Source: Hericium rajendrae (lineage: Eukaryota; Basidiomycota; Agaricomycetes; Russulales; Hericiaceae). Taken from it: 64,000 bases of DNA. A model generated the notes under the pieces. The model was given only the letters and a program-made list of their open reading frames with translations, was not told the DNA's origin and ran no database searches. This document shows positions 5,235 through 48,448 of this stretch, piece by piece. Each line of letters begins with the position of its first letter. Position 1 is the stretch's first letter. Position numbers and translations under genes: made by a program. The stretch covers positions 2,356,001 to 2,420,000 of the forward strand of contig CM065883.1 in assembly GCA_033439255.1 (NCBI GenBank). Reading direction: 5' to 3'.

Positions 5235-6360
5235 AAGATCTTGAAAGGAAGATCTCAGTTTCGAGTTTTGATTTTTGAGTTCTGGGCAGATTGGGGTCTA
5301 TGTAGCATGTCTGGAATGCGATTAATCAGTACATTCTAGTGCATTTTAGAACAATTAAATCAGTGGAGAACTGCCAGACTTACCTTAAGGTCAAGATCTT
5401 GGGGGGGAGATCTTAGTTTTGAGTTTTGATTTTCGAGTTCTGGATGGTTTGGGGGCTATGTAGAATGGCTGAAAAGAGATTAATCAGTAGAGTTGAACGC
5501 ATTTTAGAACGAGAGAATCGGTGGAGAATTGAAGGACTTACCTCAAGGTCAAGATCTTGAGGGGGTAATCTCAATTTCGAGTCTTGATTTTCGAGTTCTG
5601 GATGGTTTGGGGGCTATGTAGCATGGCTGGAAAGCAATTAATCAGTAGAGTTGAACACATTTTAGAACGAGAGAATTGGCAGAGAATTGATGGACTTACC
5701 TCAAGATCATTAGAATAATGATAATTGGTTGATTTTCAACTAGGCAGATAGGCTAGCATAGCTCAGAAGGCCTCATCTGGAAGCAGCTATCAATATCATT
5801 TTGATAAGCTCTAATATACCTTAGTTGGTGCTAGATTTAGAGACCCATAAGTAAATTAGTCTGCCAGCTCAGCAAGTTAGATACATACAAGACGACCAAG
5901 GTGAGCCGTCAGGTCGAGTACCTCCTGGTTCCAAACCGTCAACCACTCAGCAGATGACTTGGAGATACCCGTCGAGCCTTGCAGCCAACATGACAAGCAT
6001 GCAGGATGTAAAGCTCATGAGAAAGCAAGACTTTACTGCTGGTGCTTCAAAACTGAAATTTTGATTATATAATCAGTCTTCAAAATTATAGATTTTTAGG
6101 CATTTCTGTACTTATAATATACTATAAGAGTAGACATTGTACTAATGCTAATTGCTCATTGATTATATTATTCTTAGTATTAAAAAATATCAAAAAAGTC
6201 TGGCATGAACTGGAATTGAACTTGCAAACTCAAGAGAACTCACACTTCACCACTGAGTTTTGATTATGTAATCATCACATGATCACCACCATGGTACGGC
6301 CATACCATGGTGAAGTGCTCATGTGATCACAACCATGGTACAGCTGTACCATGATGAAGT
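5235..6360 (-). repeat. E repeat copy, including ~157-bp tandem units
   Basis: On the minus strand this copy matches 29.1-29.5 joined to 42.26-43.14 kb, and also 47.5-48.3 kb. Positions 5235-5705 hold about three diverged tandem units of roughly 157 bp, each containing the word TTTTGATTTTCGAGTTCTGG. A unique-looking body follows, and then a tRNA-like B-box word (complement of GGAATTGAAC at about 6209-6218). L1 interrupts the copy at 5234 at the same site where L5 interrupts the 43-kb copy. The uninterrupted word TCATCTGCTGAGTGG (complement, near 5955) is the empty KDZ target. No coding region is seen. Confidence 0.75.
6285..6355. repeat. CCATGGTACGGCC-type hairpins
   Basis: Two adjacent short inverted repeats are built on ACCATGGTACGGCCATACCATGGT and ACCATGGTACAGCTGTACCAT-like words (quoted only in part). 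A paired arrangement of the same words occurs at 29118-29190. They sit at the junction between the SINE-like tandem block and the E repeat in both duplicated copies. Confidence 0.65.
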
Positions 6361-6985
6361 GCTTCACATTCTATGAGTTCTGCATGGATCAAAATGCAAA
6401 AAATATGGTTCGAAAGCTATAAATGAGTAGTATTCGATCCACTTGAGAACGAGTGAATCGGTGGAGAATTGATTGAGATAACTAAGAATCAAGCATACTA
6501 GGAGAAAAAATACAGAAGTACTTCGTGTTCTACGAGTTCTGCACAGATCAAAATGCATAAAATATGGCTAGAAAACAATGAATGAGTAAATTCTGATACA
6601 TCTAAGAATGAGTGAATCAGTCAAGAACTGACTGAGTTAGCTAAGGATCAAGCATACTAGGGGGAAAAATACAGGAATGCTTTGCATTCTGCAAGATCTG
6701 CATGGATCAAGATGCATAATATATGGCTAGAAAGCGATAAATGAGTAGATTCTGGTGCATTTGAGAATGTGTGAATTGGTCAAGAACTGACCAAGTTACA
6801 GTAAACACAGTGTAAAAGAAAAAGTCTGGCCAGAGCTAGAATTGAACCTGCAAACTCATTAGATTGAAGATGTGTGATTCTATAAGCCAACTGCCTAATG
6901 GGCATAGTCATCGTTTTGGTGTCGTTTTCACTATGAAAAGGCGATATAGAGTAAACGATTCTAAGGAATCGTAACTAGTTTTTTT
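6361..6985 (-). repeat. SINE-like unit: ~157-bp tandems plus tRNA-like head (T1)
   Basis: On the minus strand the head comes first (6985 down to about 6830). It has an A-box-like TTAGGCAGTTGG and a B-box GGTTCAATTC followed by GCTCTGGCC. Three tandem units of about 157 bp follow, each carrying CTAGTATGCTTGATCC. The start GTTTACTCTATA(T/C)CGCCTTTTCAT is shared with the copies near 9.1, 10.8 and 28.2 kb. The promoter boxes fit RNA polymerase III transcription and point to a tRNA-derived SINE. No protein is encoded. Confidence 0.7.
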
Positions 6986-10129: not shown

Positions 10130-10860
10130 GTGAGCAGTAAATTGTGTTGGAGACCAGCTTTCTGATATATTAGGATGCATTTGAGAACAAGTGAATTGGC
10201 TGAGTACTGATTAAGTTAGCTGGAGTTCAAGCATTCTAGGGGGAAAATGCAGAAACAATTCGCATTCTGCGAGTTTTGCACCGATCCTGACGCATGAGGT
10301 ACTGTCAGAAAGCTATCAATAAGTAGATTCTGATGCACTTTAGAACGAGTAAATCGGTTGGGAATTGACCTAGTTAGCTAGGGTTCAAGCATTTTAAAAG
10401 AGGAAAAAAAGAAACACTTTGCATTCTGCAAGTTCTTAACCGATTTGGATGCATAAAATATGATAGCAAAGCTATAAGTGAGTAGATTTAGATGCATTTA
10501 AGAACAAGTAAATCAGTGGAGAATGCACTGAGTTAGCTCAAGTTCAAGTGTCATAAAGGGGAAATGTAGAAATTCATTGCATTCCATGAGTTCTGCACAG
10601 ATCCAGATGCAAAAAATACTGTCAGAAAGCAATAAATTAGCAGATCCAGATGCATTTGAGAACAGGTGAATTGGTCAAGAACTGATCAAGTTACATTAAA
10701 TCAACAAAGTTTGGCCAGAGCTGGAGTTGAACCTGCAAACTCGTGAGATTGAAGATGTGTGATTATATAAGCCAACTGCCTAATGGGCATAGTCATCGTT
10801 TGCATGTCGTTTTCACTATGAAAAGGCGGTATAGAGTAAACGATTCTAAGGAATCGTAAA
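10130..10860 (-). repeat. SINE-like unit with tandem tail (T2)
   Basis: The head lies at about 10708-10860 on the minus strand and is followed by about three and a half tandem units of roughly 157 bp ending near 10130. The head words are GGTTCAACTCC (B box) and TTAGGCAGTTGG (A-box-like). It directly abuts the decayed retroelement fragment that starts at 10867. Confidence 0.7.
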
Positions 10861-28224: not shown

Positions 28225-28970
28225 CAATTACGATTCTTTAGAATTGTTTACTCTATACCGCCTTTTCATAGTGAAAACGACATGCAAACGATGACTATGC
28301 CCATTAGGCAGTTGGCTTATATAATCACACATCTTCAATCTGATGAGTTTGCAGGTTCAATTTCAGCTCTGGCTGAACTTTTTCTTTTACACTTTGTTTA
28401 CTGTAACTTGGTCAGACATCAAAATCTGATCATTTATTGCTTTTTAGTCATATTTTATGCATCTTGATCCATGCAGAACTTGCAAAATGTAAAGCATTCC
28501 TGTATTTTTTCCCTAGTATGCTTGATCCCCAGCTAGCTCAGTCAGTTCTTGACCGATTCACTTGTTCTCAAGTGCATCAGAATTTACTCATTCATCACTT
28601 TCTAGCTGTATTTTATGTGTGTTTATCCATGCAGAACTTGTAGAATGCAAAGCACTTCTGTATTTCTCCTCCTAGTATGCTTGATCCTTAGTTATCTCAG
28701 TTCATTCTTCACTGATTCACTTGTTGTCATGTGGATCAGATGCTACTCATTCATAGCTTTTGAACCATATTTTGTGCATTTTGATCCATGCAGAACTCGT
28801 AGAACACAAAGCACTTCTGTATTTTTCCTGCTAGTATGCTTGATCCTTAGCTATCTCAGTCAATCCTTCACTGATTCACTTGTTCTCAAGTGGATCAGAT
28901 GCTACTCATTCATCACTTTCTAGTCATATTTTATGTGTTATGATCCATGTAGAACTCACACAAAAACTCG
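28225..28970 (+). repeat. SINE-like unit with ~157-bp tandem tail (T3)
   Basis: The head (28229-28378) has TTAGGCAGTTGG and GGTTCAATTTC, and three to four tandem units follow with CAGAACTTG-type words at 28474, 28631, 28789 and 28950, a period of about 158. This is the plus-strand counterpart of T1, and both are followed by the hairpin words and then by the E repeat. Confidence 0.75.
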
Positions 28971-29511: not shown

Positions 29512-29518
29512 CATCCGC
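29512..29518. repeat. KDZ target-site duplication, left
   Basis: CATCCGC directly precedes the left end and is repeated exactly at 42262-42268. The uninserted relatives at about 5955 (complement) and 47740 read AAGTC(A/T)TC(C/T)GCTGAGTGG, consistent with one copy before insertion. Zisupton-type elements usually make 8-bp duplications; the eighth base does not match here. Confidence 0.85.
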
Positions 29519-30464
29519 CACCACTGTGACACCGTTAGTCAGCCTACTTAGCCTGGTGATCCGGTAAGGTTCACCCAGGCTAAGTAGGCTCGGGGCACTC
29601 TTATCGGGTGGTCGGCGCAGTGCCTCGGAGCCTCCTCGACTTGAGGCCTCTCGTCGTCGCTGTGCATACGTCATCGGCTGATGGGGAGGCCCTGGGTGCT
29701 GCCGGGACCGGTTCCCGAGCTTGCCGGGCGTCTGTCTGTCGTCCCGTCCCCCTCCGCGTATGTAATCGCCATCAAACGTTGTCGGCGCCGTCGCCCCCGG
29801 CGCCAAACACCCCTTGCTCGTCGTCGGCGACGATGAGCACGCATTCCCGGCCTCCTGATGTATAAAATACGATGATTTGTACACCATTCGAAAGCGTTTT
29901 CGAAGCGCTTTCACAATATCCACATCCCGCAGCGATCCGGTAAGTGTACGGTGTCCTTCCACCCAGAGGCCCCGCGCACAGGCCCATTGAACCGTGTACG
30001 TGATTCATCTGACGTATTGCGTCTCGGCCCAGGGCCTGTGCCTGGCCCGTCAGCGTACGTCAGCACCATCAAATGGCCTCGGTGCCCTGTCAACGAGCTG
30101 CTTCCTCGGCGCCTAACGCCCTGCAGCAGCTCGTCGTCGTCGTCCCTGGCGCTTAAGGCCTCGTCGTCGTCGTCGGTGACGATGACGATGAGTATTCCAC
30201 CCCGCGGTACCGTAGATAGACATGTAAATACACATTCCGGAAGCGTTTTTCACGCTGAATCCAAATATTGCAGTCTCGAAGCCGTCCGGTGGGCGCCTCT
30301 CACTCTGCGTGCAGCATACGACTGCGGGGCGGGTCAGCCATCATGTGCATGTGACCCGTCGCGTCGCGTCGCGCCCGCGACTCCGTCTTGCGCTCGCTCG
30401 AGGCTCCTGCCCTCAATTCTTGACGAAACACCATGCTTTATACACCGTTCGAAAGGTATTTCAA
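29519..30464. repeat. KDZ left terminal inverted repeat
   Basis: This is about 946 bp with roughly 99% visible identity to the complement of 41314-42261. It contains a subterminal stem-loop at 29541-29590, clusters of CGTCGTCGT, and TTTCGAAAGCG-type words. The 85-188 codon frames inside it are present in both repeats and have no splice or domain support. Confidence 0.9.
29541..29590. promoter_or_regulatory. subterminal stem-loop in KDZ left end
   Basis: AGCCTACTTAGCCTGG (29541-29556) pairs perfectly with CCAGGCTAAGTAGGCT (29575-29590) over an 18-base loop. The mirror copy lies at 42190-42239. A perfect 16-bp stem 22 bp from each tip is a plausible transposase recognition site; that role is inferred. 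Confidence 0.6.
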
Positions 30465-30614
30465 TTTGAAACTAAATTTATGTAAGAAGTTCTTGCTCTG
30501 CCTCATCCCTGTGAGTAACTCTCGAGCCTCGTCCGAGATAGAGCCCTTTTTGCAGAGTCTGCAGTTTGGGCCAGCGGTCAGGCAAGAAAATGGAGCAGCA
30601 AGTAATCTCACCTT

Positions 30615-32100
30615 CTATTCAGCATTGTCCTCGTCCTCCCCGTCACTCATCTCAGAGTCTGTTGGTATAATTTCCACGCTCTTCCCCGCCCTGCTGCTCC
30701 GGCGTCCCTTGCTGCCCCGAGCGTTAGTCTTTCCCTGTCCTTTGGAGGAAGCAGCCTTGGCGTTCTTCGATGTGCTGCTGCTTGCTTTGCCTGCACCAGC
30801 AAGCAGGGCCCGCTCTCGCACTGCCTTGCGCTCACCCCACTCCTCTGGCGTAAGGTTTCGCCAATGGCACGTTTTATTCCGCAGGGCAATGGCAATGCGC
30901 TCAACCTCTGGGGTATTATAGCTTGTGTCCCCTGGCGACTTCACGCCTCCAGGCTCAGGCCATCCAACAAGCTCGACACCCCACTTGGTAACGAGCTCTT
31001 CGTATTGCTCGTAGGATATGCGAGGCAGCTTGTTGGAGTCGATGCCGCGGTCAAGGAGGATAGCTTCTGTGGGTGCAGGTGAGTATTTTGTGGTATGACA
31101 TCCATCTGCATGGCTTACCGAGGCCCTTCGTAACCAGGTCCCTTGCTTCGCCCCTCAAAGCACTCTTCTTTTTACCACCAGAGCCCCAGATCATGCCTGA
31201 GAAGAACGACATTGATGCCATTGTCAACAATGTTCACACCAAGATTGAGAAGCACGTGCACCTGCGAGACCACACGTTGAGTAGGATTGGAGCTTGAGGA
31301 CCATATCTTCAGGTACAGTTTTGTACATATCTTTCACCGCATTCTTCATCTTGTCCAAAGCCATAACCTGTGGGTTCCAGGTCTCCGTTACATCGTCATG
31401 GACGATGAACACGAGAAACTGGGCACCCGTGCGCTTCGAGAGCCCCACAAGCTAGCAATAGAAGTGGTCAGAGAATTGCGCACAGAGGTCTCAGCAACAT
31501 ACCTCTGCTTCGATGAGCACGCCCGTGCGTCCGACGTCATGCGAGGCATGCACGCCTCTCACACGTCGAACCGTCGGATCCTCATGTTTCTTCTGCAGAT
31601 CCTTCAAGATGGCCTCCTTCTCCTCCTCAGACAGATTTTTCCAACCCTCATCCTTTGCCGCTTGAGCAGACAGCTCGGGCAACGTGCGCCGCCCATTGCC
31701 CTCGACCCCTGTGCAGTTCATAAAATATGTGAGTCCACAGCGAAAATCCACAGGGCGGCGAACATTTACCATTATCTTTGTTTTCCTTCGCCTTCGCGTG
31801 GAGATAAGCATTGTACAAGTTAGGCTTACGCTTCTTCTTCAAGAGCCTTCCACCTCCAAAAACCTGCATGGATGCCCATGTCTCAGTCCTGCAGTGCATT
31901 ATCAGCGGACGGAGAAATATTAAAATATGAGCCAGTACATACTTTTGGAAGTCCTTAGAGATGGAGATAATTTTCTGCTGTAGATAGTCCCGCAGAAAAT
32001 TGATTTTGCTCCACATCTCTTCCGAGTGTAGTCGAGAAGCAGCCTTCTGCTCCTTGGTGAGGCGGGCTTTTTTCTTCGATGGTGGTTGTACCCGGACCAT
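30615..32100 (-). CDS. KDZ-associated HMG-box-like protein
   Basis: Six exons joined by GT-AG introns give about 400 residues starting MVRVQPPSKKKARLTKEQK. Residues about 70-130 (NLYNAYLHAKAKE, then RRTLPELSAQ, then WKNLSEEEKEAILKDL) resemble an HMG box. A middle region (GVLIEAELVGLSKRTGAQFL, VHDDVTETWNP) is of a type seen in KDZ-linked basidiomycete proteins. The C-terminal part has YEQYEELVTKWGVELVGWPE and a Lys/Ser-rich acidic tail (SEMSDGEDED). It is probably nuclear and DNA-binding. It lies 271 bp downstream of the TET/JBP gene on the same strand, suggesting co-mobilised cargo. The intron phases I worked out join every exon in frame. Its biochemical role is unknown. Confidence 0.8.
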
Positions 32101-32371
32101 TGTACTGAATGTTTTCCACAGGTGAGTGCGGCGGGGGGGAAAGTAAGGAGTGGGGAGCAGGGAAAATCAGTCGACCTCCCGCCCCTGCCCGTGCGCGTAC
32201 AGACTCCTGTTAGCTCCAATTATTTCAATCCCCGATGCCCTGAATCAATCGAGGGCTTGGTTGAAACTTAACCCTACGGACACTTGATTCCTGTCTCCCT
32301 CACCCCGGGCCGTCAAGAAAAAGGGTTCAATTGATACTAGCGAATAGGAAGATAATACTAGATTTTAGTAA

Positions 32372-34343
32372 CTACGCTTTGCCCTGCTCCCATCGCACCA
32401 GCCACTCACGGTCCGCCTCAAGCTCATCATATTTCGACAGCCGGCCCAGCACCTCTGCCCACCATCCCCTGTGGTCTCCATCAATGCCCGCGCGCTCAGC
32501 CTTTGATAGCGACGAAGCAGGGCGCAGGCCGTGGCGCACCCAGCGCAGCAGACCGCCGGGACAGTACTGCGTCATGGAAAAGCGCTGTTCATCCGGCTGG
32601 ATGGGCAGGTTGCCGTGGCGCATGCTTGCTGATGACAAGAGGATGGTGGTGCCCGGAGGGAATTTGATGATGAGTGCCAGGTCCCAAAGATAAAGCTCCC
32701 CGCCTTTGTCCGGGTCGAACTGCCCGAGTGCAGTTATTGCACAGGGGACATCCGGCGCGTTGTTGCAATCGTTGTGGTCGAGGCATACGGTGTCTGGCCC
32801 AAGGTTGAATGTGCACGTCGGGTACACGCTCCCCCCGCGGAAGTTGCGGCGCAGTTCCCGTTGGCTCCGAGACAGCTCGCCGAGAGAGTCATAAACGTGC
32901 GCATAGACCTTGGGAAAATAAGATGCCAAGGCATCTGGCCGATGTTCGTTAGCGCAAGCCATAGAGGCCGAAGGGAAGGGACCCACCGCTCTGAAAGTTC
33001 GCGATGCGAGAGACGTCGGCGTCGTCTGTGAGGTCGCGCAGCATGTCTTGGTGCTGCTTTGTGTGTCGCAGATTTCCCGGTTTCTGTGTGATGCCTGTAA
33101 GCTAGGGGCGGCGTAGGACATGCAGTGTGCTTACCTTCTGCCCACCCCCGTACGAAACCCCGGTCGCGATGGCGGTAAAGTTGCCGCGGCGATGCGAGGT
33201 CTGCTTAGCGGAGAAAGACCCCTCCGCGGCCTCACGCTTGCTCTCGAAGAGCTCCCCAACACGCTCCATGGCCGATGCCCAGCGCTCCTCCTCGGGGCGG
33301 CGATCATCCTCCAAGGGCGGGGGAACAAGCACCGCAATCACGCGGTCCTTGTTGTCGAGGATCACATAGGCGACGCTGGAAAGAGCGGAGATGTGAGAGC
33401 CACAACCGTGCCGGCACTGCAAATCACTTACCTTCCACACCACGCAAAATATTGAAAACCCCGCGCATCGAGCTCGACTCGCTCCCAGGGCACAGGGTTC
33501 AACGAGTCCAGGCGACGCGCGGTGTAGGCGCCGTTCGTGACCTTGTAGTCCACAGACGCGTCTGCAGCGTTGGCCTTCATCGTCGCGGGCAGAGGGCGGT
33601 TGGTGAAGGTGGCGCCATGCGTCTTGGGTGGCGCGGTCCAGTCCTTCACGGCTGCAGCCTTCGCTCGCTCCGCTGCACGTGCCTCCCTGCGCCGGCGTTT
33701 TCTGCCCTCCAGACGCCCCGCGTTCTGCTTCCGAGGCTTCTTCGTGCGGGAGCGCTTCCTTTTCTTACTAGGGGCATCGGCGTGAGCGGAGGCGGGGCGC
33801 GCATCGGGGCCAAGCGCTGCCGTGCGCTGTGCATTCGGTGGAGGAACGGCGGCGCCCTCGTCGTCATCGTCGTCATCACCGTCGTCCTCAAGCTCCGGCA
33901 TATCGGAGAGATCTTCGCCATCTGAGAGGCCTTCCCCACTCGACGGGCGGAGTGGTGGGCTGGAGGGAGGCGTGGACAGGGGGGATGCGCCGAATACTGG
34001 CGTTGACGGGACCGATGGGCTACCAGGCGCGGTGGAGAGCGGCGACAGGCTGACGGGCGACCATTCGCCTGGCGTCGAGCCGTCGCCACCCGTGCCCACG
34101 TTGTTGTTGTGGCCAGACGCGTGAGCACCCTCTTGAGCGGCGAGGGCGGCGATCTTCTCGTTGAGCTCGCCTAGGAAGTCGTCGACCTTGAGGGCCTTCT
34201 CCATGAGCTCTTCGTAGCGAAGATTGGTCTTGAACGCATTCGCGGCCATCGGAACGGCATATTGACGGCCAGAGCGTAGCTAGAACGAGGAGGGTCAATG
34301 CGTTGAGGCATGAAGATGCTGAGGCACACACCTGCATGCACAT
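32372..34343 (-). CDS. TET/JBP-type 2-oxoglutarate/Fe(II) DNA dioxygenase
   Basis: Five exons with GT-AG introns (34331-34280, 33431-33376, 33134-33084, 32986-32935) give about 586 residues. The N-terminal half is disordered, acidic and then very basic (SKKKRKRSRTKKPRKQ), a likely nuclear signal. The catalytic half contains VAYVILDNKDRVIAVL, TAIATGVSYGGGQK, RIANFQS, the iron ligands His453-x-Asp455 (LDHNDCNN) and His506 (MRHGNLPI), and Arg517 (EQRFSMTQY) for 2-oxoglutarate. This is the fungal TET/JBP family, whose members oxidise 5-methylcytosine. The frame is intact. A 12-nt first exon (MCMQ) leading into LRSGRQYAV is my preferred start; the ATG at 34249 is an alternative. Substrate and activity are inferred. 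Confidence 0.9.
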
Positions 34344-34448
34344 CTTGCTGCGGGATACGGACGCGAAATACTAGTAACATGATGTGGGTCAGCTTCGAGC
34401 GGGAAGAGTATGGAGCGGTGGTGGGTGCATAAAAATTTGCGAGCAACG

Positions 34449-34534
34449 CGCGGCAGAACCTTGGAGAGATTCAACCACGCAAAGCTCGAAAGAACAAAGC
34501 GCCGCGGCAGGGCCTTGGAGAGACCCAACCGCAG
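34449..34534. repeat. short direct repeat upstream of the TET/JBP gene
   Basis: Two related copies of GCGGCAG(A/G)(A/G)CCTTGGAGAGA (about 34450 and 34503) lie 100-200 bp before the start of the TET/JBP gene. They could be promoter elements or part of a small local duplication. Confidence 0.4.
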
Positions 34535-34934
34535 CACGGGGCGTTGGAAAGAAAAAGGGTGGGGACGAAGCCTGAGTAGAAAACTTACAGGATGTCTGTG
34601 GTGGAGGTGGGACGAGACTTGAGCACAACGGGGAACTCACTGTTTATGCCATGATGGACGCGCTTTTGAGTTTGACAGCGGGGAAACAATGGTGGTTGAT
34701 TGAATCATGTGACCGCGACGCGACGCGCCGGTGACTTGGCTCAAGCATTATTATGAGCCGCATGTCGAAGGTGTAGACAGAGAACAAAAGGGCGGCACAG
34801 CTGTACCATGCCCCAAAATCCCTAGGTACAATATAGCGTAGAAAATCTATCTATTTTTCTACCCAAAAAAAACTGACATGCATGAGAGTGCCAGTCACCA
34901 CCCGTACAATTGCTCGAACGCAGCGCGGTCCACT

Positions 34935-35560
34935 CTATGCTGCTCGGTCAGCGACGAGGTTGAGCGACAGATGATAAACGTACCGGTTTCCCTCCAAGAC
35001 CAAGACCCGATTCCTGATCGCCTCCTCATATGCCTCGTCCCCTCACCCGAGAAACTCGAGCTCCTGGTGGTAGCCTGCAACAAGGCGGCGCTGGCGGTGC
35101 AGGAACTTCTCGTCGCGAAGAGCAAACGGGTTGGTTTTGAGGTCCTCAAGGTATTCCTTCGTCTTCTCAACAGCGCTGATGAGCTGTACCTCCACCTCAC
35201 GTGCATACGTCGCCCGCGCTTGCTTTCACGTGGGTTGTTCTGAATGTAGCAAGGACAGCCGAGCGCGAAGAGCAACGCGGCGACTCTGCTCGACCTGGCG
35301 CACCTCTGCCTTGACGGATGGGTCATATCCCCTCCAGGCCTTGGGCACGATGCTGGCCAGGTATCGGCTACCAGGTTGTCAGCACCGGGGCGACGGCACA
35401 AAGAAGAGGTACGTACCCCTCGATCCCATGGACCTCCAGACGGCGGCGGGCCTCCAGAGTGAGCCACGCTGCTGCACTTACCTTTCGCCGTCCACAGCGC
35501 TTTACATAGTTGTAATCACGCTGGTTTGCCTTGAGGCCAGCGTGGTTTCTGCACGTTCAC
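34935..35560 (-). pseudogene. decayed fourth KDZ cargo gene
   Basis: On the minus strand a coding-like frame reads LKANQRDYNYVKRCGRRK and continues, after a GTACGT...TAG intron, as YLASIVPKAWRGYDPSVKAE, then EVRQVEQSRRVALRARLS, then EVEVQLISAVEKTKEYLEDL and ALRDEKFLHRQRRLVAGYHQ. It ends with the TAG at 34935-34937. Two in-frame TGA codons (35226-35228, 35043-35045) interrupt it, each one change from CGA. The charged, helical character suggests a real protein, but I recognise no family. It is otherwise collinear in frame over about 145 codons. Confidence 0.55.
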
Positions 35561-37644
35561 ACCTCGCTCAGCAAAGGTTCACCTCAGCAATGCAGGGAAG
35601 ACTTACCGTGCATAATACCGCACGTTTTTCGAGGCTCCTATCAAATGTGGTGTTACGAGGTCGTGGCGAGCACACGGGGAGTCCATATTGAAAAGAGTCG
35701 TGGTCAAGGGTATGGTTCAAGTGAGGAAAGAAGAGGAATTTAGCATCACGGAAAGCTCCGGCGTAGAGTATAAAACATTTCATGTATGCCCCCTAGGAAG
35801 TATATGATCAGTGATTATAATCAAAATACCTTGGATGAACTTGGATAGTATGCCCCATGCAGGAAAAATAAAAAATATGATGCTGGTGCTCGGAGAATCC
35901 GTTGAGTTGCTAGATTATTGTCAGGACCCGGCCGAAAGCCCACCTTCGCAAGGATGAAACGACACGGCATCAGTTCGCACCCTTGACGCAGGTGGTATCT
36001 CCCACTTTCCTATGCTGCACCTCTCACAAATCTCGAATCACCAGTCCATCGTCAATCTTACATGTAGAGATCCTGAACTCTCAACTCCATACATGTATTA
36101 AACCCCAGAATTAATTATTTTCGAGTGACCCAACTTGAAGCCAATGCATGCAGTGTAGCGACAGACATCTCTATCCGCTGAGGTGCCGGGATGTCGCACA
36201 GTTGAGTCAAAATTTCTTGTATGAGATACTACAGTGTTACTTTACAACAACATATGAGCTCTGCCGGAGAGGAGAGTTACAAAACTACATGGCAATTAGT
36301 GGATGCAAGCATTGGCCGGCATGCCGCTCACATGAGTGCCATCTCAAGGACAAGGCAGCCCGGCGGATGCTCGGACGATGCACCACCGCAGCGCCGTCTT
36401 GTCTACGCAGCCATAGGGTCGCCGAGGACTGCACTAAAAGTCTGTATCCTGTCGAGACCTGGCCAGCGCGCCCTATCATATGCCCCGTAGGTACGTACCT
36501 GCTTTTGCCTGACCGCCGCTGCCGGGGCACGCGCAGGAAAACCCGTGCAGCATCCTCGCACGTATGTGCGCGCAGGGCGTGGGTGGGGCTCAGAGCAGCA
36601 GCTCGTAGCCAGCGGCGAATGGGACGTGCCTCCACAACACATTCCCGCCATTCGATCATCGCGCGGCCGCCGATGAGGCAGAGTAAAGGTGAGGCTGCAA
36701 AACGGTGTTGGTCGACATTGTTGTTCAGCGTGGTGCTAGGTGGAAGCCAGCATTGTGTGGACATACCTCCGCACGGGTACCAAACGCAGCGCGATCCACC
36801 ATAGCGTCCTCCGCACCCATTGTGCACACCACCAGACCTTCATCCCCCCTCAAAACGTTCCACCAGGCCCGACGTTAAATTCGGGGGAGCGGCGCTGTCT
36901 GTCGCACAGGGGTAATGACGGTGGACGCGGGCGCTGCGTGGACATACCGCCGTCAGTTGCGTGCTTCCATCCGTGCGAGGCATGGCCGCAAGTCCTCAGC
37001 ACCGGGAGCATGCAGATTAAAACGCCATTTAAACAATGAAGTAAGGAGCTCACCGCTCTGTATTGCAGGTAATGGCGTGGTGGACGGGCCCATCGCCATC
37101 GCGGCGGACACTCGAAGGCGGAGCCGGTATGTCGCCCAGTCCAGGCATCCCATGTCCACCAACCGTCTACTCCCTGGCTGCTGGTCCATCAGCTGGCGCG
37201 ATGCTGAGAAGAACTCGCTCAACGTACCTAAGGAAGGCCCCTGAAGTACGATGCCAAGCGCCGAGAAGTCGGCGGGGCAGCTCGAACGTAAGCTGAGTGG
37301 GCACATGGCACCGTCATGCTGCTACAGAGAACAAGTAAAAGGGTAAGCGCACGCCTAACCATAGGTTGAAATCTCACTATCACTGTTGTGTTCATAGGTT
37401 CGAGGAGTAACGCAGACCACGAGCACCGTAGGCGCCTGTGGGCGCTCGCGCCCGCCGGCGCTAAGGTTTCAAGCTTCATCGATGGATCCTATCGATGTTG
37501 CACCGGGATCTCGCAGCGAATTCCCGAAGACCGAAGACGCTGTGCCGTGGGTAGCTGCCTGTTGAAACTTGAGAATCAGTGCCGGTGAGTACAGTCTTCT
37601 ATGGGTATTGACTGACAGTGCTCAAAGGTGCAGGGACTACTTAC
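35561..37644. other. KDZ internal region with fragmentary coding potential
   Basis: No gene model can be completed. The minus strand holds exon-like pieces, for example FSALGIVLQGPSLG and then RRLVDMGCLDWATYRLRLRV (37081-37306), and AMIEWRECVVEARPIRRWLR (36500-36690) bounded by TTTTGCAG and GTACGT. They may be upstream exons of the decayed gene at 34.9-35.6 kb. Near-repeated words GGTATGTCCAC at 36755-36770 and 36935-36950 (complement) hint at internal duplication. The start of the transposase may also lie within its 3' part. Confidence 0.4.
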
Positions 37645-40600
37645 ATGCCGAAGGTCCGCACGAAAACCAAGGTTAAGTCCAGTTATGCCGGTTCAGATGG
37701 CAGAATTTCTACTGCAGTGAAGACCGGTAGTAGAATTGCCGTTGAGCGAGATGAAGCGTTGCTCAAGAGATCACAGCAAATACAGGGTCAGCTCATACAA
37801 CTGGTTGAGCCTATGCTTTACACTAACTACCTTGGATTTTTTCGCAGCCTTTCCTTCTGACGTCCGGCGTGCCATTGATCGCGAAGTGCAGAACAATGGA
37901 GCACCGCCCGACGACCTCACGGGTGTGCCTATGGAGGTAGAAGACCTGTACGGCAACCCGGACTGGGTGGACGACGACGACGAAGACAGCGAACTGCCGG
38001 AAATCTCCCATGAGGGCGGAGAGTTAGAGGATAGACTCCGCGTAGCGTTCGAACTTACGAACGCGGCATACGGGTGAGCACACAAGCCTGGCTCCCTTGG
38101 CATGTTTACTAACATTTTTTACTTGACAGAAAACAAAGATTTCGCCGCCCTTGGGACCTGCGGACGCGCCGTGAGCGGATCCGTGCCCTCCACCGAAACT
38201 GGGAGGCAGAAATGCCCTTCCTGGTGGAGGAATATCTCCACTGGAAGCACGCATGTCCCGGTCAGGCTGGCCAATCCACAGCCATGGGGGGGAATTCAGG
38301 CAGGGCAACTGGTGGATGCGGGGCCGAGGGAGAAACTGCGGCGGGTTTGCACACTGAAGAAGTGGGTTCTGACGGCGGCGTGGAGGCTGAGGTGCGCGTC
38401 GAAGCCGGTGCAAGACACCACTTCCATGTATGCGGTGTCCGCACTTTTAGTGAGTCACAGAGTTCCTACATCGCTGCGCCATGTCTGATTAACTGTATGT
38501 GCTCTAGAACGAATTCCAGACATGTCAGTAGCACAGCATGACAACGAGTCGGCCAACGTCTCGCTGCTTCGTATGGGGTTTCTCGGATGTGCTCCGCTGC
38601 AGCCATCTGTTGCGTTCGACCTGCGCACGCTCGAATTGTACCACCGCCTTCGACGGCGCCACTCTGGGCTTGGGTTGCTGCCGATGGCCCGCGCCCTGTG
38701 TGATCTCCACGACGTATGTACCACCATTGTTTGTACAACATGTTCCGGGTGCATGCTCACTCATCTCACTGCAGGTGGACTACCGCTCGTCGTTTCGCGA
38801 GCAGCTTTCGATCGCATTCGATGCGTATCTAGAAATCTTACGGCGTGTCAAGCAGCAGGTAGATGCTGCACTTGGGCGCAGCGATCCATTGTGGAGGCTG
38901 AAGAATTCGTGCCCGCCATGTAGCTTCAAGGTACCTTTGTTGAATTGTTTTCAGCGTCATCGAGCTCACACGCTCTCCTCCTCCTCATAGCTCAAGGATG
39001 AGCTACCACTCGTTCCCTCTCGCCTGGGTTGCATTGATGGCAACAATTCAGCAAAACGTGTTGCGTCTGCCGGAGCACAAGACCTGCGCAACTTCGAGAG
39101 CCCCTACTTCCTGACGCGCGAGCAGGTGGACCGGTATAAGGATGAGGTGCGGGGTAAACGAGTGCTAGAGGCGTTGGGTCAGGTGTGTAATCAGATGCTG
39201 CTCGTACTGTGGAGTCGGCTGATGTACGTTCAGGACGACGTTGTGGAGGATGCGCCATGGGCGCCCGATCCCGACAGCCCAGGGGATCCCACTGATGGGC
39301 AAGATGGTGTGACATCCTGCACGGAGCGATGGAAAGCCAGTGCAGCTGAGCATATGAAGAGGGCGCTGGACGTGTACGACATCACAGGGATATTTGGTGG
39401 CTCATGCCGGCACGGCTTGATAACACTGTTCTGTGAAATGGTACGAAGCGGCGAGCTGTAAGTGATGTGTGCTCAGCTCAGTTATTTTGCTGATCCCTGC
39501 CATTCTCCAGAGCAAAATATCCGCTGGCAATTACTGACCATACACTAGATGCACATGACGAGGAGGACGAGGGCATCGCCTTTGACATTGGCTGCGCGTT
39601 CGAGGGCACCGTACAGCGCAGCCCGCTAGTAGGCCCCAACGCGTTGAAGCGGCGTTTACAAGTCTTTGTCAATGCGTTCCATGGTTGGGCTCACAACCGC
39701 CTCTGTCAGCTGTCTCACCACCCTCTATATCGCACCGGCGTAGGGTTAGAGGACCTGGAGGGGATGGAGCGCGTGTTCTCGGCGTCGAATGCCGTTGCGC
39801 GTGTCGTTCGATATTCAAGCCGCTTTCATTGGATGCAGGCCTTGGACCTCCATTTTCAACAATGGGACGAGGATAAATATGCAAACCTCAGTAAGTCTTG
39901 TGCCTCTCAATTCATGCTGTTCTTATTTGCTGTCTCTTGAACGTGCAGGCCGTTTTCTATTGAACAACTACCGTCAAGCAAACTCCATCATCCTTGACTA
40001 CATGCGCGACGTCAATGATATGCTTACGTGTCTCAACATCACAGAGGATGCCGTTCGACAGTGGCTACAGGAGGAGGAGAAGTTCCTGCGAGACCTTAAA
40101 GACGAGCCCGAGGAACGTCTTTTGGAGTGCTCCTACGTGGAGGCACTTTTAGCGCAAGAGAAAGCAGAGTAAGTGCCATCTGCTTTTCAGCAATAGCACC
40201 ACTAACGGCACGTCACGCTACCAGTAAGAAATGGGATGCGACATCGCAAATCTTTGTCTCTACGCCCCTTACTCAAGGTGCAGAGGGCTCTCGGGCATAT
40301 TCAGCAGACCGACGCAAGACAGCTCGGCTTGAGGCTGCACGTCGTGCTGCTCTCACTCAGCTGAGCATTGCAAACCGAGCGGTTGAAGATCTAGAGGCGA
40401 AGCTCGAGGTCGATTCAAGGTGGACTCCACACGATGCAAAGTATCAGGAGGTTTTGGAATACCTGCAGAAGCGTGAGTTTCACAAAGCGCTAAACAAAGT
40501 CCAGCAGCTGGTTGTGCAGAGGCTCTTCGAGATGTCGAAGGCCAACATTGCTGGGATGGGTATGTTTTTTGCGCCATCATTCTGGCGGCTGCAGAATTTT

Positions 40601-41276
40601 TTTCTCACCATTGATGGCAGGATACAAGGTTCGAACGTCAATCTGGAAGCACCTCAAGACACGGGGGAAGGCGATCCGCACAGCGCTCACAAGCTACAAC
40701 AACATAGCCAGCAAAATGAAGCTGCCTGCTCCAGTTCTCGAATGGAAGAGCGTGGTGAATTTTAGTTTTGTTGCTGAGTTTGACATCCTCCGCCATTCAC
40801 ATGCCGACATAGATTTCGCAGCAAAACCATGGATGTCGCCAGCTAACCGTGAAGTTGTGAACAAGCTCTTCAAGATCCTCCGTGCTCGTGAAGAAATAAC
40901 ACGTCTTAATGTCGAGATCACGCGCCTTCGCACGTTCCTCTTCTCTGAGGATACCACGTACCTTGATGCAATCACTGTGCAACAACAGGCAGGAAAGCAT
41001 CTTCTCGCTCTAGAGATCGAGGCACAGTACAAGTCACGCTTCCATGTTAACAAGGTTCATCACACCGTCCTCAATACAATAGAGGCACTTCCTGGGTTTA
41101 CTGGTACCCAAGGTGGTGGTTTTCCTGCCAGTGGTTCAGCAGATGGTGCATGGGAGGATGCTGATGAGTCTGGAGATGCCGAGGTTGAAGCTGGTCTCGA
41201 GGATGCTGACTTACAGGAGCAATGTTTTAGAATGACCGAAGTCATGGAGGATCTTGCAATGGAGGGTGATCTCTAG
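37645..41276 (+). CDS. KDZ (Kyakuja-Dileera-Zisupton) transposase
   Basis: Ten exons joined by GT-AG introns give 1036 codons without a stop. The start MPKVRTKTKVKSSYAG at 37645 is the first that keeps the frame. In order come a basic N-terminus, an acidic linker (GNPDWVDDDDEDSELPE), a CxC1-type cysteine-cluster region with MPFLVEEYLHWKHACPG, GFLGCAPLQPSVAFDLRTLE and MARALCDLHD, and then the catalytic core. Core motifs are CIDGNNSAKRV (Asp near 366), YPLAITD and AFDIGCAF (Asp near 531), HGWAHNRLCQL, and GLEDLEGMERVFSASN (Glu near 592), followed by FLLNNYRQAN and a helical tail. The protein would cut and join the element ends. It is intact, so the element may be autonomous. Expression is unknown. 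Confidence 0.9.
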
Positions 41277-41313
41277 ATTAATACATCATAAATATTCTCG
41301 AATTAATGTAGCA

Positions 41314-42261
41314 CTTGAAAATATCTTTCGAATGGTGTATAAAGCATGGTGTTTCGTCAAGAATTGAGGGCAGGAGCCTCGAGCGAGCGCAAGACGGAGT
41401 CGCGGGCGCGACGCGACGCGACGGGTCACGTGCACATGATGGCTGACCCGCCCCGCAGTCGTATGCTGCACGCAGAGTGAGAGGCGCCCACCGGACGGCT
41501 TCGAGACTGCAATATTCGGATTCAGCGTGAAAAACGCTTCCGGAATGTGTATTTACATGTCTATCTACGGTACCGCGGGGTGGAATACTCGTCGTCATCG
41601 TCACCGACGACGACGACGAGGCCTTAAGCGCCAGGGACGACGACGACGAGCTGCTGCAGGGCGTTAGGCGCCGAGGAAGCAGCTCGTTGACAGGGCACCG
41701 AGGCCATTTGATGGTGCTGACGTACGCTGACGGGCCAGGCACAGGCCCTGGGCCGAGACGCAATACGTCAGATGAATCACGTACACGGTTCAATGGGCCT
41801 GTGCGCGGGGCCTCTGGGTGGAAGGACACCGTACACTTACCGGATCGCTGCGGGATGTGGATATTGTGAAAGCGCTTCGAAAACGCTTTCGAATGGTGTA
41901 CAAATCATCGTATTTTATACATCAGGAGGCCGGGAATGCGTGCTCATCGTCGCCGACGACGAGCAAGGGGTGTTTGGCGCCGGGGGTGACGGCGCCGACA
42001 ACGTTTGATGGCGATTACATATGCGGAGGGGGACGGGACGACGGACAGACGCCCGGCAAGCTCGGGAACCGGTCCCGGCAGCACCCAGGGCCTCCCCATC
42101 AGCCGATGACGTATGCACAGCGACGACGAGAGGCCTCAAGTCGAGGAGGCTCCGAGGCACTGCGCCGACCACCCGATAAGAGCGCCCCGAGCCTACTTAG
42201 CCTGGGTGAACCTTACCGGATCACCAGGCTAAGTAGGCTGACTAACGGTGTCACAGTGGTG
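41314..42261. repeat. KDZ right terminal inverted repeat
   Basis: This is the mirror of 29519-30464 with only scattered single changes visible. It contains the matching stem-loop at 42190-42239 and begins 37 bp after the transposase stop codon, so the polyadenylation signal must lie in the repeat. Confidence 0.9.
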
Positions 42262-43140
42262 CATCCGCTGAGTGGTTGACGGTTTGGAACCAGGAGGTAC
42301 TCGACTCGACGGCTCCCCTTGGTTGTCTTGTATGTATCTCACTTGCTGAGCTGGCAGACTAATTTCTTTATAAGTCTCTGAATCTTGTACAAACCAGTAT
42401 GTGTTAGAGCTTGTCAAAACCACATTGACAGCTGCTTCCAGTTCATATCTTCTGAGCTGTGATAGGCTATCTGCCTGGTGAGCAATCAACCAATCATCAT
42501 CATCTGAATGATCTTGAGGTAAGTCCCTCAGTTCTTCACCGATTCAGTTGTTCTAAATTGGGCTGGAAAGTACTAATTAATCGCTTTCCAGACATGCTAA
42601 ATAGACCCAAATCTGCCCAGAACTCGAAAATCAAAACTCGAAACTGAGATCTCCCCCCAAGATCTTGACCTTGAGGTAAGTCTGGCAGTTCTCCACCGAT
42701 TTAATTGTTCTAAAATGTGCTGGAATGTACTGATTCATCGCTTTCCAGGCATGCTACATAGACCCCAATCTGCTCAGAACTCGAAAATCAAAACTCGAAA
42801 CTGAGATCTCCCCCCCAAGATCTTGACCTTGAGGTAAGTCTGGCAGTTCTCCACCGATTTAATTGTTCTAACATGCACTGGAATGTACTGATTAATCGTG
42901 TTCCAGACATGCTACATAGACCCCATGCCACCCCAAACTCAAAAATCAAAACTCGAAACTGAGATCTCCCCCCCAAGATCTTGACCTTGAGGTAAGTCTG
43001 GCAATTCTCCACTGATTTAATTGTTCTAAAATGCACTGAAATGTATTGATTAATCACTTTCCAGCCATGCTACATAGGCCTCAGTCCATCCAGAACTCAA
43101 AAATCAAAATTCGAAATTGAGATCTTCCTTTCAAGATCTT
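42262..43140 (+). repeat. E repeat, second part, with ~157-bp tandem units
   Basis: The first 7 bp are the KDZ duplication CATCCGC. A unique body follows to about 42515, and then four tandem units (GAGGTAAGTC at 42519, 42672, 42831 and 42988, a spacing of 153-159). Each unit runs GTAAGT, then TACTGATT(C/A)ATC, then CTTTCCAG, which looks like an intron of about 75 bp. The copy stops at the L5 insertion and resumes at 46080. Confidence 0.8.
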
Positions 43141-47540: not shown

Positions 47541-48448
47541 TCCAACCCTAGTACAATATCTACTCTTATAGTATATTATAAGTACAGAAATGCCTATAAA
47601 TCTATGTGTTGAAGACTGATTACATAATCAAAACTTGGTGATGAATTGTGAGAGCATTAAAGTCTTGCTTCCTCATGAGCTTTACATCCTGCATGCTTGT
47701 CATGTTGGCTGCAAGGCTCGATGGGTATTTCCAAGTCTTCCGCTGAGTGGTCGACGGTTTGGAATCAGGAGGTACTCGACTCAGCAGCTCACCTTGGTCA
47801 TCTTGTATGTATCTCACTTGCTGAGCTGGCAGACTAATTTACTTATAGGTCTCTGAATCTTGCACAAACCAGTGTGTATTAGAGCTTATCAAAACCACAT
47901 TGACAGCTGCTTCCAGTTCATATCTTCTGAGCTGTGATAGGCTATCTGCCTGGTGAGCAATCAACCAATCATTATCATCTGAATGATCTTGAGGTAAGTC
48001 CATCAGTTCTTAACCAATTTACTCATTTTAAAATGCATTGAAATGTACTGATTAATCACTTTTCAGACATCCTACATAGGCCCCAGTCTGCTCAGAACTC
48101 GAAAATCAAAACTCGAAATTGAGATCTCTTCCCCAAGATCTTGACCTTGAGGTGAGTCTGTCAGTTCTCCACTGATTCACTCATTCTAAATTGTGCTCAA
48201 ATGTACTAATTTATCACTTTCCAGACATGCTACATAGGCCTCAGTCTGCCCAGAACTCGAAAATCAAAACTCGAAATTGAGATCTTCCTTTCAAGATCTT
48301 GATCTTGAGATAGCTACAGATTTTATAGAGATTTATAATCAATCTGATCAGTGAGACTTAACATCATTTATGCATTGTTTCTAAATATTACTAACAATGA
48401 AAAAGGAATTGTATTGCTGTGCAAAGCATCGGCCCTCTTCCATCAAGT
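47541..48448 (+). repeat. E repeat copy lacking L and KDZ insertions
   Basis: This copy is collinear with the 29.3/42.3-43.1/46.1-46.2 kb copy but uninterrupted at both insertion points. It therefore provides the empty site for KDZ (CAAGTCTTCCGCTGAGTGG) and for L5 (CAAGATCTTGATCTTGAG). It has only two ~157-bp units (GAGGTAAGTC and GAGGTGAGTC near 47991 and 48150) and ends in the 44-bp tail motif. Confidence 0.8.

Follow-up and report, generated by a model that had tools for sequence, protein, structure and literature searches.

A KDZ-class transposon carrying a TET/JBP-like dioxygenase gene in Hericium rajendrae

The window considered here is a 64,000-nucleotide stretch of the genome of the basidiomycete Hericium rajendrae (assembly GCA_033439255.1, contig CM065883.1, positions 2,356,001 to 2,420,000; C6:2356001-2420000 in the contig names used below). 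Positions 29519-42261 of the window are a structurally complete KDZ-class transposon, with predicted genes for a transposase, a TET/JBP-like dioxygenase and an HMG-like protein. The favored explanation, to which a probability of roughly 0.58 is assigned, is that a KDZ-class element, characterized by long inverted repeats, a transposase of CxC1-like type and a target duplication of 7 bp, gained a TET-like gene acting in self-protection and inserted once at this place.

Boundaries, insertion site and CpG content

The element is flanked by an exact 7-bp direct repeat, the target-site duplication CATCCGC, located at 29512-29518 on the left and at 42262-42268 on the right. Inside this duplication lie two 943-bp terminal inverted repeats: the left one at 29519-30461 (forward strand), starting with CACCACTGTGACACC, and the right one at 41319-42261 (reverse strand), ending with ...CAGTGGTG. 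An earlier note on this DNA had described the same duplication and paired repeats of ~946 bp, a length which is corrected here by three bases. The termini of the element are CACCACTG...CAGTGGTG, with CACC..GGTG ends, and the two repeats differ by nine mismatches, all of which are transitions (9/9). The left repeat also contains 16-bp perfect palindromic arms (29541-29556 and 29575-29590), 22 bases from its end, which are a possible candidate for the transposase binding site. The arms are present with one mismatch in a relative at C12:1797143 (76% match) and are not clearly kept in a related element on contig C16.

The insertion itself is documented by empty sites. The query joined 159 bases of the left flank (including one target copy) with 181 bases of the right flank, 340 bases in total, and was searched against the genome of 46.8 Mb in 19 contigs. 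The joined flanks match at least 40 places at 89-97% identity, a lower bound from the 40 of 104 candidates that were scored, and each match covers no fewer than 332 bases of the query and thus crosses the junction. A single target copy is present in all ten of the places fetched (CATCCGC in eight, CATCTGC in two). Since the repeat runs uninterrupted elsewhere with a single target, the arrangement of the element is not a matter of chance, and the empty sites across the genome mean that it inserted into an abundant repeat. Tandem arrays of 158-159 bp occur in the window at 5235-5709, 6362-6798, 10174-10693, 28440-28957, 42509-43140 and 47984-48309, two of them within ~600 bp of the element, one on either side; they are perhaps part of the repeat entered by the element.

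The number of copies was addressed by two genome searches, in which no second copy of the element was found. A query of the outermost 543 bp of the repeat matches the two ends of the element itself (and a small palindrome within each), and beyond them the relative at C12:1797143 (76%) and a 135-bp fragment at C14:958012. The 2.9-kb middle of the element matches only itself. The genome-wide search for copies with different flanks, which the earlier note had proposed, thus returned a single-copy element. Its description as a good candidate for a living element rests on the open frames and the 99% identity of the ends, and the copy-number support that was looked for is absent. As the genome holds no second copy, mobility is shown by one precise insertion only.

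The CpG content of the element is 0.98, which is near expectation; the 10 kb on its two sides have 0.68 and 0.40. CpG transitions account for eight of the nine differences between the two ends (null 0.34, P 0.0011). The target repeat, used as a control with the same counting in ten copies, is hardly enriched (160/740, null ~0.19); these ten comparisons share the flank of the window and are not independent. The per-site change in the target repeat is 0.304 at CpG, 0.177 at CpC, 0.05 at CpA and 0.049 at CpT, and its copies show frequent transitions at CpC besides CpG. The host genome contains DNA_methylase homologs, with five exon-level matches. We read these observations as those of an element which would have entered fairly recently and would have been exposed to CpG methylation despite its own TET gene; nine differences are few.

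The dioxygenase, its branch and the other genes

All three gene models are spliced and predicted, with GT..AG introns of 51-65 bp, and the frames of 1035, 586 and 400 amino acids (aa) given in the earlier note were recovered. The dioxygenase (586 aa) is encoded on the reverse strand at 32372-34343 in five exons (34343-34332, 34279-33432, 33375-33146, 33094-32987 and 32934-32372), the first of which, with four codons, is the least certain part of the model. The iron triad HxD...H is formed by H453, D455 and H506, with the motif letters HND, and R517, which we take to be the 2-oxoglutarate arginine, is also present. The transposase (37645-41276, forward strand, ten exons, 1035 aa) matches the Pfam KDZ domain PF18758 with 244.7 bits against a cut-off of 26.6. 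Its cysteine cluster at about aa 245-294 is CxC1-like: it scores 23.3 bits, under the 26.9 cut-off, and 26.9 in the genome search with neighbors. A CxC2 match was not found within the element. The residues D366, D531 and E592, each with a conservation of 90% or more in an alignment of 45 proteins, would constitute the catalytic triad of the transposase. The putative catalytic residues of both enzymes, which the earlier note had given as present, are in place.

The identity of the dioxygenase was judged from a predicted fold in place of a sequence match. The protein has no match to Pfam Tet_JBP (PF12851) even at E<=5, and only three of its 54 homologs match at E<=0.01; at the sequence level, it matches no solved TET structure, including CcTet of Coprinopsis cinerea, at E<=10. 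A structure model was made of P0001, a Hericium alpestre homolog 76% identical to the window protein, and not of the window protein itself, the latter being spliced; its predicted local distance difference test score (pLDDT) is 90.9. The top 16 PDB rows for this model are CcTet, NgTET1, TET2 and CMD1. The first three score well above the other entries shown, and CMD1 (12.0-12.8) is slightly above FTO (11.8). Comparing its profile with that of three CcTet-like proteins also points to the TET identity (E 7.6e-6). From the fold of the close homolog and the profile comparison, and despite the absent Pfam match, we conclude that the window dioxygenase is a TET/JBP enzyme and that its branch differs from the AG and PE types, the types compared. 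The claim of an intact TET/JBP dioxygenase thus holds for the open frame, the iron and 2-oxoglutarate residues and the fold of the homolog, and fails for the Pfam match.

These types were defined by Kojima (2025, PMC12730594), in whose available text the AG-type TETs of Kyakuja transposons carry Gly/Ser331 and Asp337 (CcTet numbering), the PE type has HxE in place of HxD, and the PU type has the residues conserved in Pucciniomycete TETs (Figure 7). In the window protein, Asn458 and Cys464 occupy the positions of CcTet Gly331 and Asp337, and the HND motif differs from that of the PE type. Asn458 aligns with Asn1387 of human TET2, and the position of TET2 Thr1393 is Cys. Both Asn458 and Cys464 are retained in 53 of the 54 homologs from other fungi.

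The genome contains two unlike sets of TET genes. The Tet_JBP profile gives 46 matches, of which 38 exceed the cut-off and none is in the window, and the dioxygenase domain of the window gives 62 matches, which merge into 56 loci, fragments among them. Loci of the two sets are everywhere more than 5 kb apart. One genome Tet_JBP protein matches CcTet (1.8e-22), and the Gly and Asp of CcTet are present in all three that were translated. Tet_JBP matches with identical scores occur in about nine places (e.g., C8:692159, C8:776884, C10:1569937, C10:2205177 and C14:1999969) and in two further sets of four. Most members of these multi-copy TET families have CxC2-KDZ genes next to them, and the families seem to have been active more recently than the window element.

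The TET tree included 23 of the 56 genome loci (the window and 22 others, in one of which HxD was not recovered by pattern) and 53 of the 54 homologs, with P0053 excluded because its match was too short. The window falls into a group of 17 rows with support of 100/99, the other 16 being copies on C14, C4 and C3 of the same genome and proteins of Hericium, Dentipellis, Artomyces, Auriscalpium and Peniophora. Its closest relatives are from H. alpestre (Russulales, Hericiaceae), in which a single predicted protein comprises a TET part (64%) and an HMG part (52%). This joining indicates that the pair predates the insertion in the window. The C14 relative has TET and a repeat fragment, and HMG and transposase are absent from the 13 kb examined. 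In eight pairs of TET copies of this branch, synonymous divergence (dS) ranges from 0.72 to beyond measure. Protein changes are rare: for the six pairs whose dS is finite, the ratio of nonsynonymous to synonymous divergence (dN/dS) is 0.044-0.074; the ratio of 0 printed for the other two is meaningless. For the nearest relative, synonymous sites are saturated, with dN/dS of 0.06. Judged by these ratios, the window TET branch is under purifying selection. Part of this branch may reportedly have been described by Iyer et al. in 2014.

The HMG-like gene lies on the reverse strand at 30615-32100 and encodes 400 aa in six exons (32100-31943, 31888-31770, 31708-31503, 31451-31262, 31196-31119 and 31066-30615). 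Its HMG_box_2 score is 18.8 bits against a cut-off of 22.4 (E 0.0028), and that of P0004 is 16.5 bits. The protein is therefore called only HMG-like: the open gene noted earlier was recovered, and the HMG box stays under the Pfam cut-off. The divergent starts of the TET and transposase genes are separated by 3.3 kb (34344-37644), which presumably hold promoters and may contain an undetected gene. The 34700-37640 part of this stretch has one genome match, itself, and in four of its longer open reading frames (ORFs; 34.7-37.6 kb) no Pfam domain scores above the cut-off, the best being RING-like (E 0.035).

Related elements, origin of the TET gene and competing explanations

Transposases similar to that of the window occur at nine or more genome loci, including the window, and the others are 37-70% identical to it. 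Nine is a lower bound, with 44 of 64 candidates scored and loci merged by hand, as were the HMG places and the accessory gene described below; the locus at C12:1798-1810k is broken. None of the eight other loci has a TET gene within 12 kb. A homolog of the HMG-like gene is found within 12 kb of seven of the nine loci (window included), and none of these seven HMG places has a CxC2 match within 26 kb. Five of the six non-window loci with HMG have an additional gene in the interval from transposase to HMG, with all three genes on the same strand (additional gene at C16:20377-21021, C8:180018-180663, C12:354142-354787, C10:1863551-1864057 and C10:1688652-1689059); the ORF on C16 matches no Pfam domain at E<=1. 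One of these loci, C16:16687-26002, is a second complete related element, with transposase, HMG-like gene and the further gene and no TET. It has 479-bp inverted repeats (one difference), a 7-bp duplication GCGCTGA and ends CACCTGTGTGACA.. of a motif similar to CACCACTGTGACA.. of the window element. As related elements exist with and without TET, a gain of TET, accompanied by changes in gene order and strands, is the simplest account, and the gene was probably acquired by the ancestors of the window element.

The proposed mechanism is as follows. The transposase would bind the repeat ends and move the element. The TET-like enzyme would oxidise methylated cytosine on the element DNA, to which the HMG-like protein may bring it, and as a result the host CpG methylation would silence and mutate the element less. 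The TET gene, found elsewhere in the genome with a CxC2 KDZ transposase, would probably have been taken up by the ancestors of the element; most related TET-less elements carry another gene between transposase and HMG. A more specific version is given a rather low probability. It assumes a TET branch mostly missed by Pfam, with the TET2-like Asn in its base pocket and present in mushroom genomes next to the CcTet-like branch, which moved from CxC2-KDZ into CxC1/HMG elements and acts there with the HMG-like protein as a two-gene anti-silencing module that oxidises 5-methylcytosine (5mC) on the DNA of the transposon itself.

Several observations weigh against the self-protection explanation. The element is single-copy, and it is at most a candidate for current mobility. 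The relatives of its transposase are distant, and the transposase tree (131 columns, weak support; P0055, P0098 and five CxC2 sequences excluded) places the window apart from C16, C8 and C12: the nearest rows by path are Polyporales proteins, and the C11 locus is placed elsewhere. The argument for TET gain therefore comes from presence and absence of the gene, and both the general and the two-gene explanation are slightly less probable because the tree does not support a close common lineage. The ends of the element carry CpG transitions, which suggests that they were not spared methylation. None of the enzymes compared has a pocket like this Asn/Cys one, which makes the substrate uncertain. 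Finally, the TET strand is opposite to that of the transposase, unlike the CxC2-linked TET loci (cluster at most 6 kb away), all 61 of which share the strand of the cluster, so the gene might be a passenger.

Among the alternatives, an ordinary member of the TET-carrying Kyakuja transposons, different in detail only, is unlikely and survives best. Kyakuja elements have a 7-bp target duplication and 5'-CA..TG-3' termini (PMC12730594, section 3.2.1), both of which match, and Russulales are among the orders with TET-carrying Kyakuja. The 943-bp repeats, however, contrast with two Laccaria Kyakuja families that lack terminal inverted repeats, Asn and Cys stand in place of Gly/Ser331 and Asp337, and HMG is not mentioned in the main text of that paper. 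Kyakuja membership on the shared duplication and end motif was not accepted, because the TET type and the inverted repeats differ.

Somewhat less probable is a TET gene trapped in the element, useful to the host or a mere passenger, which serves the fungus or nothing and not transposition. The opposite strand and the single copy would fit such a gene, as would the 31 of 56 window-branch loci without a CxC2 cluster within 6 kb. The remaining 25, together with 36 of the 46 Tet_JBP loci, lie beside CxC2-KDZ genes, and the adjacency of TET and HMG parts in H. alpestre also speaks against it.

An equally doubtful possibility is that the enzyme acts on another substrate (N6-methyladenine (6mA), thymine or a CMD1-like hypermodification) and is not a 5mC eraser. 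According to the available text of PMC11040006, CcTet relies on Asp337, where substitutions abolish its 5mC activity, and that position is Cys464 here, retained in 53 of 54 homologs. On the other side stands Asn458, for the same text equates the CcTet Gly331 position with TET2 Asn1387, which holds 5mC, and states that 5mC is bound, and 6mA disfavored, by the Asn at this position of other Tets. The putative 5mC oxidase of the earlier note is plausible and weaker than stated: the protein has no Tet_JBP match and lacks the Asp of CcTet, with the TET2-like Asn instead.

Assembly error or coincidental nesting of unrelated repeats and genes is negligible even in this repeat-rich region, given the exact duplication, the near-identical ends, clean empty sites in 10/10 and the element on C16, which resembles it in end motif and has a separate duplication of 7 bp.

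Relation to known systems

Transposons bearing a demethylation-type enzyme provide a natural test case for the escape of mobile DNA from methylation. In H. rajendrae, two dissimilar TET branches occur near KDZ transposases, and of the two complete related elements one has TET and the other lacks it, a pair that allows methylation, mutation and spread to be compared. Counts of fungal TET genes by Pfam Tet_JBP overlook a large branch, as seen from the 56 merged loci here.

The linkage of KDZ and TET in basidiomycetes, taken as established in the earlier note, is indeed published, Kyakuja included (PMC12730594). As far as that text goes, the window element resembles TET-carrying Kyakuja in its KDZ transposase, duplication, CA..TG termini and a TET/JBP gene within a complete element of Agaricomycetes, and differs in the long inverted repeats, the CxC1-like cluster, the HMG-like gene and the two pocket residues. 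In the literature listings, TET transposons in Russulales led to Kojima 2025 alone, and HMG with KDZ and TET to a single brown-alga paper.

The second comparison is with KDZ1-KDZ3 of Cryptococcus neoformans, elements of 9-11 kb with 139-241 bp inverted repeats, KDZ and CxC1, whose insertions have been observed (PMC12810828). They share long inverted repeats and a KDZ transposase, with CxC1 there and a CxC1-like cluster here. Their duplications are 8 bp in KDZ1 and 4-8 bp in KDZ2 and KDZ3, compared with 7 bp in the window element and its C16 relative, and a TET gene, present here, is not mentioned in the available text.

Among enzymes, CcTet (PDB 7vpn, 8jkk) shares the fold and the Fe(II)/2-oxoglutarate residues with the window branch and differs in Gly331/Asp337. 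For human TET2, the structural alignment gives 11% identity. Compared with the literature in the parts available, new features are the TET branch, the CxC1-like and HMG-like setting, the very long repeats, the comparison of elements with and without TET and the likely gain of TET.

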